This document shows, one piece after another, positions 22,093 through 37,758 of a DNA stretch of 64,000 bases. The translations under genes and the position numbers were made by a program. The stretch lies in contig JAHRYN010000005.1 of assembly GCA_020621405.1 (NCBI GenBank), forward strand, positions 186,001-250,000, in the 5' to 3' direction. The DNA comes from Betaproteobacteria bacterium. GTDB lineage: Bacteria > Pseudomonadota > Gammaproteobacteria > Burkholderiales > Rhodocyclaceae. The first letter of the stretch is position 1, and each line of letters starts with the position of its first letter. The notes below the pieces were generated by a model that did no database searches, had not been told where the DNA came from, and saw only the letters and a program-made list of their open reading frames with translations.

Positions 22093-22413
22093 ATGGACAG
22101 ATCGCCGTTCCGCCCCCGCATCACACGCATTCAACCGCAGTCTTCCGGCTTCTTCGGCCGCCTCGTCGCAGTGGTCGTCGGCGCCGGCCTGCTGGTGCTG
22201 GGCCTGATGTTCTCGGTGGTGCTGATCGTCGCCGCCGCGATCGCCGGTCTGGTCATCTGGGGCTGGTTCTGGTGGAAGACGCGCGCGCTGCGCCGCCAGA
22301 TGCGCGAACGCATGGACATGCCGTTCGGCAACGTGGAGCCGGTGCAGCCGGAGGGCCGCATCATCGAGGGCGAAGTGATCCGCGATCCGGATGAGGTTCC
22401 GCCGCTGCGCTGA
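22093..22413 (+). CDS. Small two-helix membrane protein, conserved hypothetical
   Basis: 106 residues. One long hydrophobic stretch (LVAVVVGAGLLVLGLMFSVVLIVAAAIAGLVIWGWFWW), probably two close transmembrane helices, is followed by a basic segment KTRALRRQMRERM and an acidic, proline-rich cytoplasmic tail ending DPDEVPPLR. No function is recognised. The start ATG 22093 is preceded by GGTTTCCGG, a weak ribosome site. It sits 82 bp after the PilZ gene and just before the FNR/NsrR-controlled nnrS promoter. Confidence 0.6.
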   Translation: MDRSPFRPRITRIQPQSSGFFGRLVAVVVGAGLLVLGLMFSVVLIVAAAIAGLVIWGWFWWKTRALRRQMRERMDMPFGNVEPVQPEGRIIEGEVIRDPDEVPPLR

Positions 22414-22451
22414 CGTCACGCAGGTCGAACGCCGCCAGACCTCTGACGCGC

Positions 22452-22465
22452 TTGATGGGAATCAA
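22452..22465 (+). promoter_or_regulatory. FNR/DNR box (perfect consensus)
   Basis: TTGAT-GGGA-ATCAA matches the FNR consensus TTGAT-N4-ATCAA at every conserved base. Its centre (22458.5) lies 41.5 bp upstream of 22500, with a -10-like TATGTT at 22488-22493, the geometry of a class II FNR-activated promoter driving nnrS (ATG 22523). Confidence 0.85.
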
Positions 22466-22470
22466 GGTTT

Positions 22471-22493
22471 AAGATACATATAAAATGTATGTT
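22471..22493 (+). promoter_or_regulatory. NsrR operator
   Basis: AAGATACAT-atAaa-ATGTATGTT fits the NsrR site form AAGATGCAT-N5-ATGCATCTT (here AAGAT/CAT and ATG/AT/TT half-sites). It is nested in a longer near-palindrome, AGGTTTAA...TTAAACCT (22465-22500). It covers the predicted -10 region and lies directly next to the FNR box. nsrR itself is the second gene of the operon. Confidence 0.82.
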
Positions 22494-22522
22494 TAAACCT
22501 CGCTCACGTACGGATTCCCGCC

Positions 22523-23758
22523 ATGGCCACCCTGCTGACTATTGAAGAGCCCGCGCCGCCGGCCAGACCGGCGCCCGCGCTCGATGCCTTCCTCGAGATG
22601 GGATTCCGTCCGATCTACCTGGCCGGCGCCCTGTGGGCGCTGGTGGCGGTAGCGATCTGGATCTTCGCGCCGCACTGGCTGACCGGACCGCTTGCCGGCA
22701 TTCCGTGGCATGCGCACGAAATGCTGTGGGGCTTCGTGGCCACGATAGCCGTCGGCTTCCTGATGACCGCCGGTGCCGCCTGGACCGGCATCAATCCGGT
22801 GCAGGACCGGGCGCTCGGCGTGCTGTGCGTGCTGTGGATCGTGGCGCGCTGCGGCTATCTGATTCCCAGCCAGACCGCCTTCCTGATCGCCGGGATCGCG
22901 GAATTCAGCTTTTTCGCACTGGCCGCTGCGGCGCTGCTGCGCGCGGTGATCAAGTCGCGCAATGTGCGCAACTACGCGGTGCCGGGCATGCTGCTGGCGC
23001 TGGGCGTGACCGACGTGCTGTTCCTGCTGTCGGCGCATGCCGGCGACTACGCGACGCTGATGCGCCACTTCAACGCCGGCATGCTGTGCATGAGCCTGGT
23101 CACGCTGCTGGTGGCGCGACGCGTGATTCCCTTCTTCGCGATGCGCGCGGTACCCGGTCTGCAGGTGCCGATGCAGCTGCGCAGCGGTCACGTGCAGCTG
23201 GTGGCGACTGCGCTGGCCGTGCTCAGCCTGCTGGCCGATCTGCGCACCGTGCAGGCCGGCGCGCTCGCGCTGGCCGGTGGCATCGCACTGGTGCAGTGGA
23301 TCAGCTGGAAGCCGTGGGCGGTGCTGCGCAAGCCGATACTGTGGATCCTGTACGCCGGCTACGGCGCGCTGGCTGCCGGCCTGCTGCTGGCGGCGGCCGA
23401 AGCGGCCGGCATCGGCGCGCGCGCCGCGCTGCATGTGCATGTGATCGCGATGGGCGGCTTCTCGGTGCTCATCATCGGCATGATCACCCGCACCGCGCTC
23501 GGCCATCTCGGCCGGCCGCTGGAAACCGACCGCAGCATGGTCACCGCGTATGTGCTGGTGATCGTCGCGACCGTGCTGCGCCTGTGCGCGCTGCATCCGT
23601 CGGCCGCGTCGCCCCATCTGCTGCACCTGGCCGCGACCTTGTGGGTGGCCGCGTTCGCGCTGTATCTGTGGCGCTTCCTGCCGATGATGATCCGCCCGCG
23701 CGCCGATCGCACGGCACCGCCGGCGACGCCGGTCAGCATCACCCGCCGCGGGAAGTGA
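22523..23758 (+). CDS. nnrS: NnrS family haem-copper membrane protein
   Basis: 411 residues with about 12 transmembrane helices. NnrS signatures include FLEMGFRPIYLAGALWALV, WHAHEMLWGFVATIAVGFLMTAGAAWTG, HFNAGMLCMSLVTLLVARRVIPFF, HVHVIAMGGFSVLIIGMITRTALGHLGRPL, with several conserved histidines that can bind haem. NnrS is linked to denitrification and protects against NO and metabolic iron-dinitrosyl stress. It starts an operon with nsrR, and its promoter has an FNR box and an NsrR operator, so expression would need low oxygen plus NO. The ribosome site before ATG 22523 is weak. Confidence 0.92.
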   Translation: MATLLTIEEPAPPARPAPALDAFLEMGFRPIYLAGALWALVAVAIWIFAPHWLTGPLAGIPWHAHEMLWGFVATIAVGFLMTAGAAWTGINPVQDRALGVLCVLWIVARCGYLIPSQTAFLIAGIAEFSFFALAAAALLRAVIKSRNVRNYAVPGMLLALGVTDVLFLLSAHAGDYATLMRHFNAGMLCMSLVTLLVARRVIPFFAMRAVPGLQVPMQLRSGHVQLVATALAVLSLLADLRTVQAGALALAGGIALVQWISWKPWAVLRKPILWILYAGYGALAAGLLLAAAEAAGIGARAALHVHVIAMGGFSVLIIGMITRTALGHLGRPLETDRSMVTAYVLVIVATVLRLCALHPSAASPHLLHLAATLWVAAFALYLWRFLPMMIRPRADRTAPPATPVSITRRGK

Positions 23759-23759
23759 C

Positions 23760-24194
23760 ATGCGCCTGACCACGATGACCGACTACGCGATGCGCCTGCT
23801 GATGCATGTCGGGCGCAATTCCGGGCGGCTTTGCACGATCGCCGAGATCGCGCAGGCCTACGCCATATCCGAGGCGCACCTGATGAAGGTGACGCACCAG
23901 CTGGCGCTGGCCGGGTGGATAGACACGGTGCGCGGCAAGGGCGGCGGCATGCGGCTGGCGCATGCGCCCGAGGCGATCGGTCTGGGCCAGGTGGTGCGCA
24001 GCATCGAACCCGACTTCCGTCTGGTCGAATGCCAGGGCGGCGGCAGCGAATGCCAGCTCGATGGCCGCTGCCGGCTGACCGGCATACTCGACGGCGCCCT
24101 GCGGGCCTTTCTTGCACATCTCGACCGCCATACGCTGGCGGACATCCTGCCGTCGCCCGGGCAGGCGGACGCGGTGATGAGGAGAGTGTCTTGA
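23760..24194 (+). CDS. nsrR: NsrR, NO-sensing Rrf2-family repressor
   Basis: 144 residues. The Rrf2 winged helix (MRLTTMTDYAMRLLMHVG...; residues 1-65 with VRGKGGGMRLA wing) is followed by three cysteines at 91, 98 and 104 (VEC...SEC...GRC), the spacing used by NsrR to hold an Fe-S cluster that reacts with NO. Asp8 is also in the usual position. It represses NO-detoxification genes. It starts 1 bp after nnrS, and a matching operator lies in front of nnrS, so negative autoregulation is expected. Its stop overlaps the next start by 1 bp (TGATG). Confidence 0.93.
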   Translation: MRLTTMTDYAMRLLMHVGRNSGRLCTIAEIAQAYAISEAHLMKVTHQLALAGWIDTVRGKGGGMRLAHAPEAIGLGQVVRSIEPDFRLVECQGGGSECQLDGRCRLTGILDGALRAFLAHLDRHTLADILPSPGQADAVMRRVS

Positions 24195-24493
24195 TGCCGA
24201 CCGAGGAACAGCTGCGCGCCGCGCTGCACACGGTGCCGGATCCGGAACTGGTCGAAAGCATCGTCGATCTCGGTCTGGTCAAGTCGATCAGGATTGCCGA
24301 AGGGCGGGTCGACGTGGTGCTGATTCCGACCAGCGCCACCTGTCCGATGGGCGAGCTGCTGATCGAGGATTCCACGGCCGCCCTGCGCGCGGTGTGTCCG
24401 CCGGGCTGCGAGGTCCGCGTCGAATTCGACTGGGACACCGAATGGCATCCGGGGCGCATGAGCCCCGAACTGCAGCTGCGTTTCGGCTGGTGA
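24194..24493 (+). CDS. MIP18/DUF59-family protein (metal-sulfur cluster assembly type)
   Basis: 99 residues, a single DUF59 domain: TVPDPELVESIVDLGLVKSIRI, VDVVLIPTSATCPMGELLIEDSTAAL, and a C-terminal CEVRVEFDWDTEWHPGRMSPELQ. The conserved Cys in TSATCPMG is present. Family members (PaaD, SufT, MIP18) take part in Fe-S cluster assembly or transfer. Placed between nsrR and an NnrS-like gene, it may help repair or load Fe-S proteins damaged by NO; this is inference. Start ATG 24194 overlaps the nsrR stop. Confidence 0.85.
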   Translation: MPTEEQLRAALHTVPDPELVESIVDLGLVKSIRIAEGRVDVVLIPTSATCPMGELLIEDSTAALRAVCPPGCEVRVEFDWDTEWHPGRMSPELQLRFGW

Positions 24494-24500
24494 GCGCGGC

Positions 24501-25601
24501 ATGAGCGTGCGGCGATCAGCCCTGTGGCGTGCTGCCGTCATCGCGGCGGCCGTGCTCGCCGCGGTCAACCTGCTGGCCGGCATCAGCGGCGGGCTGGCGC
24601 GGCTGGGACTGCCGCTGCCCGCGGCGCCGCTGGCGCTGCACGGTGCAGTGATGGCGTGCGCCTTCTTCGGCTCGGTGATCGCGCTCGAACGCGCCGTCGC
24701 GCTGCAGCGTCTGCCCGGCCTGCTGGTGCCGCTCGCCGCCGGTGCGGGCGGCGTGTTCGCCTGGGGCCTGCAGTCGCCAATCGCGGCGCAGGTGGCGTGG
24801 CTGCTGGCTGCCGGTGGCCTGGTTGCGCTCTACATTTACGCCGGACGCAGCCGCGCCTGGTCGCTGCATCTGAAGGTCGAAATGTCGGGCGCGCTGTGCT
24901 GGTTCGCCGGCACGGCGGTCTGGGCGGCCGGCGATCTGGCGGCCGGGGTAAGTGGCTGGGTGGCCTTCCTCGTGCTCACGATTGCTGGCGAGCGGCGGGA
25001 ACTGATGCAGCTGATCCGTCTGCCGGCGGCTGCGCGCACGCTGTTCGTGCTCGTGGTGGCTGCGTTGCTGGCGGCGGTGGCGCTGTGGCCGTGGCGTGCG
25101 GTCGTGGCGGCGCCATTGTTCTGGCTTTGCTGTGCCGTGCTGGCGCTCTGGCTGCTGCGCTGGGACTTTGCGCCGCGCAAGTGGGCGGCTGCCGGCTGGC
25201 CGGGCCACACTGCGCAATGCCTGACGCTGGGCTATGTGTGGCTGCTGGTCGGCGCCCTGCTCGGACTGTATGGATCGGTGTCGCCGGGTGCGCTCGCCGC
25301 GACCGGATTGCACGCGGTGCTGCTCGGCTTCGTGTTCGCGATGGTGTTCGGCCACGCGCCGGTCATCCTGCCGGCGCTGCTGCACCTGCGGCCGGTGTAT
25401 TCCGGCTGGGCACGCGCGCCGCTGTGGCTGCTGGCGGCCAGTCTGGTGCTGCGCATCGCAGCCGGTGCCACTGGCGAAGGCCGCTGGCTGGCGCTTGCCG
25501 GTGCCGGCCATGCGATCGCCATCGCAGGCTTCGCTGCCGCGATGGCGACGGCCATCGTGCGCGGACGGCCGCTGTCGCCGACCGGCGTCGCCGGACGATG
25601 A
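24501..25601 (+). CDS. Polytopic membrane protein, NnrS-like
   Basis: 366 residues with about 11-12 hydrophobic helices. HGAVMACAFFGSVIALERAVAL and LHAVLLGFVFAMVFGHAPVILPALLHLRP resemble NnrS-type membrane segments, with histidines at helix positions that could bind haem or metal. It is a separate gene from nnrS and lacks the full NnrS signature set, so I call it NnrS-like only. It lies 7 bp after the MIP18-like gene. Function unknown; the operon suggests a role in NO or anaerobic stress. Confidence 0.65.
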   Translation: MSVRRSALWRAAVIAAAVLAAVNLLAGISGGLARLGLPLPAAPLALHGAVMACAFFGSVIALERAVALQRLPGLLVPLAAGAGGVFAWGLQSPIAAQVAWLLAAGGLVALYIYAGRSRAWSLHLKVEMSGALCWFAGTAVWAAGDLAAGVSGWVAFLVLTIAGERRELMQLIRLPAAARTLFVLVVAALLAAVALWPWRAVVAAPLFWLCCAVLALWLLRWDFAPRKWAAAGWPGHTAQCLTLGYVWLLVGALLGLYGSVSPGALAATGLHAVLLGFVFAMVFGHAPVILPALLHLRPVYSGWARAPLWLLAASLVLRIAAGATGEGRWLALAGAGHAIAIAGFAAAMATAIVRGRPLSPTGVAGR

Positions 25602-36746: not shown

Positions 36747-37136
36747 CTAGAGGCTGGCTGCGCGCGGGCGTCCGCGTTCCCGTTCCGTCTCGCAACCCAC
36801 GCAGCGCAGTGTCTGGGGTTCGAGTTGCAGCCGTGCCAGCGGAATGCCGGTACCGCAGTCGTCACAGATGCCGTAGCTGCCTTCGGCCAGCCGCTGCAAT
36901 GCGCCTTCGATGGCGGCCCGTTCCACTACCTCGTGGTCGGTGGTCGCCAGATCTATTTCCCGATCCGCGTCGCGCTGCGGCGCGTCGTCTCCGTCCTGCA
37001 GCAGGACTTCGCGTGCGTGTTCGGCACGTGTCGCGCCGGCGAACAGCACCTGCCGGCGTGCATCGAGTGCGTCGCGGCGTTCGTACAAGCGTCTTTCAAG
37101 CTGTTCCCGTTCTGCATGGGTGAGCGGTGTGGTCAT
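36747..37136 (-). CDS. DksA/TraR-family C4 zinc-finger protein
   Basis: 129 residues. A coiled-coil-like acidic/basic helix region (residues ~6-90) is followed by a C4 zinc finger: Cys91 and Cys94 (CDDC) and Cys112 and Cys115 (CVGC), with YGICDDCGTGIPLARL typical of the DksA/TraR family. It is shorter than DksA (151 residues) and may act on RNA polymerase as a DksA paralogue. ATG 37136 is chosen because AGGAGGAAAGATC lies just before it. A perfect FNR box 51-64 bp upstream suggests anaerobic control. Confidence 0.82.
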   Translation of the reverse strand: MTTPLTHAEREQLERRLYERRDALDARRQVLFAGATRAEHAREVLLQDGDDAPQRDADREIDLATTDHEVVERAAIEGALQRLAEGSYGICDDCGTGIPLARLQLEPQTLRCVGCETERERGRPRAASL

Positions 37137-37186
37137 GATCTTTCCTCCTGTTGCCTTCATGCTTGCACCGGCCCGCCGGACCGGCG

Positions 37187-37200
37187 TTGATCGAGATCAA
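37187..37200 (-). promoter_or_regulatory. FNR/DNR box (perfect consensus) upstream of DksA-like gene
   Basis: TTGAT-CGAG-ATCAA fits the FNR consensus exactly. Its centre is 57 bp from the minus-strand ATG at 37136; an activator at -41.5 would put the transcript start near 37152, about 16 nt before the ATG. It is symmetric and could also act on the plus-strand gene at 37366, about 170 bp away. Confidence 0.75.
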
Positions 37201-37365
37201 CGGCGACGGAACGCGGACCCGGCGGTGCGGATGCGATCATGACGTCATGGGGCAAGACCTTGTCGCCGGATGTGGAATCCGGGCGCAAGGCTGGGCGATA
37301 ATCGCCGCCCCGACATGCCTGCCGTTCTTCCGACGTGCAGGCCACCAATCCGGACGAGACAAGAC

Positions 37366-37758
37366 ATGAGTGACAATCAGGATCAGGGCGTCAAGGTGCG
37401 CCGCGAAGTGATGGGCGACGCTTTCGTCGACCGTGCGCTGGGCAATGCGACCGACTTCACGCAGCCGCTGCAGGACTTCATCAACGAGCACGCGTGGGGT
37501 GGGGTGTGGACGCGCGACGGACTGGATCGCCGGACGCGCAGCCTGATCACGCTGTCGGCGCTGACCGCGTTGAAGTGTCCGAACGAACTGAAAGGGCATG
37601 TGCGCGGTGCGCTGAACAACGGCTGCACCGTCGGGGAAATACGCGAAACGCTGCTGCACTGCGCGGTCTATGCCGGTGTGCCGGCGTCGGTCGAAGCGTT
37701 CCGTGCGGCGCAGGAAGTGATCGACGCCCATCAGGCGGCCGCTTCCGCCGCCGGATGA
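37366..37758 (+). CDS. Carboxymuconolactone decarboxylase family protein
   Basis: 130 residues from ATG 37366 (frame open to 37270 but without a ribosome site). CMD domain: DFINEHAWGGVWTRDGLDRRTRSLITLSALTALK, ELKGHVRGALNNGCTVGEIRETLLHCAVYAGVPASVEAFR. This is close to 4-carboxymuconolactone decarboxylase (PcaC), which acts in protocatechuate degradation. No other protocatechuate gene is nearby, so the substrate is not secure and an AhpD-like role is possible. It is convergent with the quinol-monooxygenase-like gene. Confidence 0.8.
   Translation: MSDNQDQGVKVRREVMGDAFVDRALGNATDFTQPLQDFINEHAWGGVWTRDGLDRRTRSLITLSALTALKCPNELKGHVRGALNNGCTVGEIRETLLHCAVYAGVPASVEAFRAAQEVIDAHQAAASAAG

Follow-up and report, generated by a model that had tools for sequence, protein, structure and literature searches.

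The window, by which we mean the whole 64-kb stretch of DNA analysed, comes from a Methyloversatilis-like betaproteobacterium with a genome of 3.8 Mb, which we designate G000 in a set of 13 genomes of the genus. Of 80 public loci ranked by nsrR, the seven nearest belong to Methyloversatilis; their match values equal those of seven congener genomes, and loci L050–L056 were therefore taken to be the same as those of G005, G007, G009, G011, G004, G008 and G003, while four further loci (L001, L002, L018 and L020) are duplicates representing the window's own place. The search for seed operators used nnrS matches starting before query residue 70, and 30 nnrS matches were taken as loci. The source genome encodes FNR, a DNR-type regulator, a cytochrome cd1 gene (nirS-like) and a candidate norC, and the organism looks like a denitrifier.

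The region of interest is a 109-bp intergenic region (22414–22522) upstream of nnrS, which contains an FNR-type box and an NsrR-type operator separated by 5 bp. The box ends 57 bp and the operator 29 bp upstream of the nnrS ATG at 22523. The features of the locus are as follows.

22452–22465, no strand: FNR/DNR-type box TTGATGGGAATCAA, both half-sites and their spacing read directly; extended form CTTGAT-N4-ATCAAG
22466–22498, no strand: imperfect inverted repeat around the operator, arms GGTTTAA (22466–22472) and TTAAACC (22492–22498)
22471–22493, no strand: predicted NsrR-type operator AAGATACATATAAAATGTATGTT, palindrome with a weight matrix score of 37.8
22488–22493, plus strand: probable -10 element TATGTT, inside the operator, ending 7 nt before the presumed start at 22500
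22523–23758, plus strand: nnrS, 411 aa (Pfam PF05940, E 1.9e-90)
23760–24194, plus strand: nsrR-like Rrf2 regulator, 144 aa (PF02082; Asp8, Cys91/98/104)
24194–24493, plus strand: small Fe-S assembly protein (FeS_assembly_P, PF01883, E 6.7e-17; the search began at 24197, the codon after the ATG)
24501–25601, plus strand: membrane-protein-like gene, probably the fourth of the operon; related genes occur downstream in congeners

The genes are tightly packed: nsrR starts 1 nt behind nnrS, and the ATG of the Fe-S assembly gene overlaps the nsrR stop by one base. A relative of the Fe-S assembly gene lies behind nsrR in all 11 congener loci L021–L031. The membrane-protein-like gene had no match in Pfam or NCBIfam at E 0.001 and none in PHROGs, and a relative lies downstream in each of the seven public congener loci L050–L056 (only a piece in L053). 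Within the genus nnrS is present in 12 of 13 genomes, with nsrR directly behind it in every one of the 12; the remaining genome (G002) gave no nnrS match and its Rrf2 gene is only 55% identical. The locus thus has the gene order of a self-repressing operon, with the operator before nnrS and nsrR directly behind nnrS. A second nsrR-like gene (48% identical) is found in G004, where it is divergent from ytfE (L202; NCBIfam YtfE over cut-off).

The regulator carries the cysteine pattern Cys91-X6-Cys98-X5-Cys104 together with Asp8, the residues expected of NsrR. Its best match among solved structures is NsrR of Streptomyces coelicolor (5n07, E 5.8e-18), with Asp8 and the three cysteines aligned; in the latter, the [4Fe-4S] cluster is coordinated by three cysteines together with Asp8 contributed by the partner subunit (PMC5411485). 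The next solved matches are an unnamed regulator (7zpn, 2.1e-10) and IscR (4.7e-08). The protein scores 108.7 bits against the NCBIfam NsrR equivalog cut-off of 182, slightly less than its RirA score (117.1 against a cut-off of 193), and falls below the IscR cut-off as well; the NsrR model is one that we take to be enterobacterial in type. As these cut-offs are missed, the name NsrR-like rests on the residues, the nearest structure and the linkage. An earlier note on this DNA had placed nsrR second in the operon, and the residues, the 1-nt gap behind nnrS and the gene order in relatives all bear this out.

Two sites upstream of nnrS and their fate within the genus

The box contains both TTGAT-N4-ATCAA half-sites at the spacing of an FNR-type site, so that the perfect FNR site described in the earlier note is confirmed in position and letters, and it stands far above chance expectation. 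Five places in the window match with at most one mismatch (two of them perfect), compared to 0.45 expected, and none of 100 shuffles reaches five. Genome-wide there are five perfect places compared to 0.28 expected from the window base composition, with none for a backwards control pattern, and for the 109-bp intergenic region the expectation, computed from the base composition of that region, is 8.7e-5 perfect boxes. The second perfect box of the window (TTGATCGAGATCAA, 37187–37200) lies between a DksA-like gene (36747–37160, minus strand) and a PcaC-like gene (37270–37758, plus strand), both family matches being below curated cut-offs. Elsewhere in the genome, a perfect box (L130, 1501–1514) is found between divergent nirS-like and uroporphyrinogen-III methyltransferase genes, approximately 7 kb from the DNR-type gene.

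A perfect box precedes nnrS in eight of the 12 nnrS-bearing genomes (G000, G003, G006, G007, G008, G009, G011, G012). The other four (G001, G004, G005, G010) have a degenerate box, TTGTC-N4-RTCAA, at the same spacing as in the window; all four encode FNR, which counts against the reading proposed below. In seven of the eight genomes with a perfect box, all but that of the window, the box includes the TGA that closes an open frame upstream (L021, L022, L024–L028, 73–109 bp before nnrS). This TGA fixes three bases of the box, so part of its conservation in these seven congeners has another possible cause. The end of the upstream frame differs in sequence from the gene upstream in the window, and the operon therefore occurs in at least two contexts.

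The operator is identical to its own reverse complement at 18 of 23 positions. Its score of 37.8, from a weight matrix of seven operators from other genera, compares to 6.9 for the next best place in the 64-kb window, and 2000 shuffles of the intergenic region that preserve dinucleotides reach at most 16.4. The seed operators were picked out with an E. coli-like consensus, so the matrix owes nothing to this genus but is not free of prior knowledge. By hand count, 11 of the 14 positions of gATGyAT-N5-ATrCATc are kept. A chance origin is excluded for both the box and the operator. The right operator half, ATGTT, is present in all 12 nnrS-bearing genomes; the left half has decayed in several congeners, being degenerate in G006, G004 and G010, which again counts against the proposed reading.

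The claim that an NsrR palindrome covers the predicted -10 element also holds, since TATGTT lies wholly within it. This hexamer is found in 11 of the 12 nnrS-bearing genomes (CATGTT in G003), and the conservation of the right operator half across the genus would fit a -10 element there. Transcription is predicted to start near 22500 because TATGTT is taken as the -10 element; the box centre, 22458.5, lies 41.5 bp upstream of that position. A simple sigma-70 scan of 22300–22600 failed to detect a promoter possessing both hexamers; this is consistent with dependence on an activator but is not in itself evidence for it.

With the right operator half serving as the anchor of the comparison, the distance between box and operator centres comes to 23.5 bp for the window as well as for the four genomes with a degenerate box, 28.5 bp in G006 and G009, 40.5 bp in G007, G008 and G011, and 41.5 bp in G003 and G012. 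If the -10 element sits in the operator throughout, FNR would be centred at approximately -41.5, -46.5, -58.5 or -59.5 in different members of the genus. Among these only -41.5 is a textbook class II position. Since the operators are AT-rich, alternative -10 elements are available in them and the starts may differ. The spacings do not all fit a single FNR position, and the variation counts against the main reading. Among related genomes, the nnrS-nsrR order, the perfect box and the right operator half are largely or fully kept (12/12, 8/12 and 12/12, respectively), and the box-operator spacing is not. The earlier note's placement of FNR at -41.5 is correct in arithmetic and coordinates and is a plausible geometry for the window; it depends on the assumed start and is not conserved across the genus.

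The inverted repeat extending beyond the operator folds with z = -3.05 in the window promoter. Longer arms are present in G003, G007, G008, G011 and G012, giving, with the window, six of 12 promoters with fold z of -3.0 to -5.6; in the remaining six the repeat is weak or absent (z -0.2 to -1.8). A mobile-element origin of the longer repeat was considered and set aside: away from nnrS promoters it matches only in pieces of 13–32 nt (E 0.7 or worse), and it is therefore a single-copy feature, not a repeated element. In five close relatives two pairs have changed on both sides, which 247 of 500 shuffles reach, and 90% of cells pair, which 21 of 500 shuffles reach. The covariation is weak and gives no support to a role of the repeat in RNA, and its left arm would be untranscribed if the start is near 22500.

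A predicted two-input promoter and its alternatives

We consider it likely that this is a two-input promoter for the response to nitric oxide (NO), combining activation by an FNR-family protein at low oxygen with NsrR repression that is relieved by NO, in an operon that represses itself. At low oxygen the FNR-family activator, most likely FNR, would bind 22452–22465 and recruit RNA polymerase to the TATGTT promoter. When NO is absent, Fe-S-loaded NsrR would occupy 22471–22493 over the -10 element and block initiation; NO would damage the cluster, NsrR would leave, and nnrS, nsrR and the two downstream genes would be expressed. With nsrR second in the operon, NsrR would repress its own synthesis. 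This self-repression would keep resting NsrR low and refill it on induction, so that repression returns after NO.

The identity of the activator is the point on which the most substantial alternative turns. It is possible, although we regard it with some doubt, that in the source species the main reader of the box is DNR, an FNR-family activator responsive to NO; both inputs would then sense NO, and nnrS would be tied to denitrification rather than to oxygen itself. The source genome does encode a DNR-type protein (P0001, named by eye and by its place approximately 7 kb from nir genes), one of its perfect boxes lies between the cytochrome cd1 gene and the uroporphyrinogen-III methyltransferase gene, and the window box conforms to the DNR consensus of betaproteobacteria, CTTGATnnnnATCAAG (PMC1274295). 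The methyltransferase gene, whose name is borne out by its family model, is followed by a cytochrome c gene read as norC by eye, its profile match being to cytochrome c only. However, no NCBIfam model is over cut-off for P0001 (best FtrB, 103.9 of 211 bits), and a strong DNR-type match occurs in only two of the 13 genomes, G000 and G009 (in the latter at 46% identity, in two pieces), which are also the two with cytochrome cd1 family matches at E <1e-100. All 13 genomes match the DNR-type query at E 0.001, but the best matches among the other 11 are 24–25% identical, the level shown by another Crp-family protein of G000. FNR, in comparison, is present in all 13: that of the source genome (L135, 1009–1743) has the cluster cysteines and scores 251.9 bits against the NCBIfam Fnr cut-off of 228, and the 12 others have relatives of 91–94% identity. 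Six of the eight genomes with a perfect box lack a strong DNR-type match, so FNR best explains the conservation and is most likely the better conserved reader of the box; DNR may also act in the source species. The earlier note's choice of FNR as activator is therefore favoured by conservation in the genus and qualified by the DNR-type regulator encoded alongside it, as published DNR sites share the same core.

The remaining alternatives concern the operator. With only 5 bp between the sites in the window, binding of FNR and NsrR might be mutually exclusive, NsrR blocking FNR as much as polymerase. We think this unlikely, because the distance between the two centres ranges from 28.5 to 64.5 bp in relatives, where the pairing is thus kept without such closeness. 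It is less probable still that the palindrome is the operator of a RirA- or IscR-like Rrf2 regulator and that the operon is geared to iron or Fe-S damage and not directly to NO. The operon does include an Fe-S assembly gene and the regulator scores higher with the RirA model than with the NsrR model (117.1 compared to 108.7 bits, both below cut-off), but the second Rrf2 gene of G004 shows the same order (135.5 compared to 118.7) beside ytfE, so the order of scores does not separate RirA from NsrR here; the constant linkage to nnrS in the genus, the NsrR-type motif (11/14) and the best solved match to NsrR also argue against this reading. Finally, the palindromes could be non-regulatory, such as a hairpin at the 3' end of the preceding gene, given that the inverted repeat extends past the operator and folds in half of the promoters (z -3.0 to -5.6). 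The site statistics and conservation, together with a terminator scan of 22300–22600 that found nothing, make this very improbable.

Other targets and distribution outside the genus

A narrow operator pattern allowing two mismatches gave 20 rows in the source genome compared to 15 for a backwards control, and is therefore not specific at that level; its only perfect match is the nnrS site. The two remaining places with one mismatch, immediately 3' of a membrane-hydroxylase-like frame (L003) and at a flgB-like/flgC-like junction (L004), both frames named by eye, were set aside as chance. A second pattern, searched with at most one mismatch in the 13 genomes, recovered the nnrS site in 11 of the 12 nnrS-bearing genomes, missing the degenerate operator of G006, and its control gave one match. 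It found five places away from nnrS (two in G012, one each in G007, G008 and G002, none in G000); being shaped on nnrS operators, it would miss weaker or different sites. Within the limits of the pattern used, NsrR in the source genome apparently has a single target, compared to more than 60 genes for E. coli NsrR according to a review (PMC4601167). In G008 a second NsrR-type palindrome (L212, 1501–1523) overlaps codons 2–10 of nosZ (NosZ, TIGR04244).

The 80 public loci with the nearest nsrR include 40 in which nnrS immediately precedes it in the same orientation and 61 with a strong operator upstream of nsrR. A box with at most one mismatch lies within 90 bp of the operator in 15 of these 61, compared to 0.94 expected for randomly chosen positions in these loci; the other 46 have no such box near the operator. 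The pairing is thus much more frequent than chance predicts, without being general. Outside the genus, box-bearing loci number 10 of 55 (L113 was left out as a short-slice artefact), and these are partly non-independent, the sites of L062, L063, L064 and L070 being very similar. The distance between box and operator is 53.5–55.5 bp in eight of the 10, from Hydrogenophaga, Caenimonas, Variovorax, Delftia and further relatives, and the other two are Polaromonas (48.5 bp) and Ottowia (64.5 bp). In four box-bearing loci the operator is directly followed by a gene of 134–146 aa resembling truncated globin (L059, 4349–4750; L064, 4300–4731; L069, 4307–4744; L081, 5476–5913). Pfam Bac_globin is just over cut-off in L059 and L081 and gives no match in L064 and L069, and nnrS comes after the globin-like gene in L059, L064 and L069.

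The spacing classes, 23.5, 28.5 and 40.5–41.5 bp in the genus and 53.5–55.5 bp outside it, suggest a more general reading, which we put forward tentatively: selection may keep the pairing of FNR box and NsrR operator on nnrS-nsrR operons while leaving their geometry free, with FNR switching between modes of polymerase contact under an unchanged logic, and with NsrR serving its own operon alone in this genus. If so, the spacing outside the genus would put FNR at -71.5 to -73.5, provided that the -10 element stays in the operator.

Comparison with known systems

We found no published work on this nnrS promoter in our searches of open-licence literature. The type of switch is already known, both as joint control by FNR and NsrR and as nnrS-nsrR operons; apparently new are this member, a self-repressing NsrR with what seems a single target, the variation in spacing and the longer inverted repeat around the operator. 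Specialists may be surprised by how freely the spacing varies inside a single genus and by an NsrR that has apparently come down to a single target. The locus would offer a compact example of a promoter at which signals for oxygen and NO converge and whose repressor is encoded in the operon it controls. Its relatives provide a native spacing series, with FNR proteins of 91% or higher identity to the one in the source genome, which could show how strictly activator and repressor positions need to be tuned. In Neisseria nsrR is located away from aniA, and in enterobacteria it lies elsewhere than hcp-hcr, where the FNR-NsrR spacing is also wider.

One of the closest published parallels is the NsrR regulon predicted by Rodionov et al. 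(2005), which, like the window, has a palindrome before nnrS and, in some genomes, nsrR in a possible operon with nnrS (PMC1274295). Position 4 of the motif given there and its partner are G and C, whereas the window has A and T; for the Neisseria motif they are given as T and A (PMC1274295). The window also differs from that regulon in that its operator is the sole one in the genome by the pattern used and has an FNR box 5 bp away. For the Methylophaga nnrS-nsrR-dnrN cluster, 2.4- to 16-fold higher transcript levels are reported when cultures are anoxic and contain nitrate (PMC11526790).

Two other promoters resemble this one in their sites. Before enterobacterial hcp-hcr an FNR-type site followed downstream by an NsrR palindrome is predicted, as in the window, although the target genes are different (PMC1274295). 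In Neisseria, one promoter of a nitrogen-oxide gene, aniA, combines a need for FNR with an NsrR motif: FNR is essential for its activation, and mutation of nsrR raises expression 5-fold from the meningococcal promoter and slightly from the gonococcal one; unlike nnrS, however, aniA encodes a nitrite reductase and responds to NarP as well (PMC10187123).
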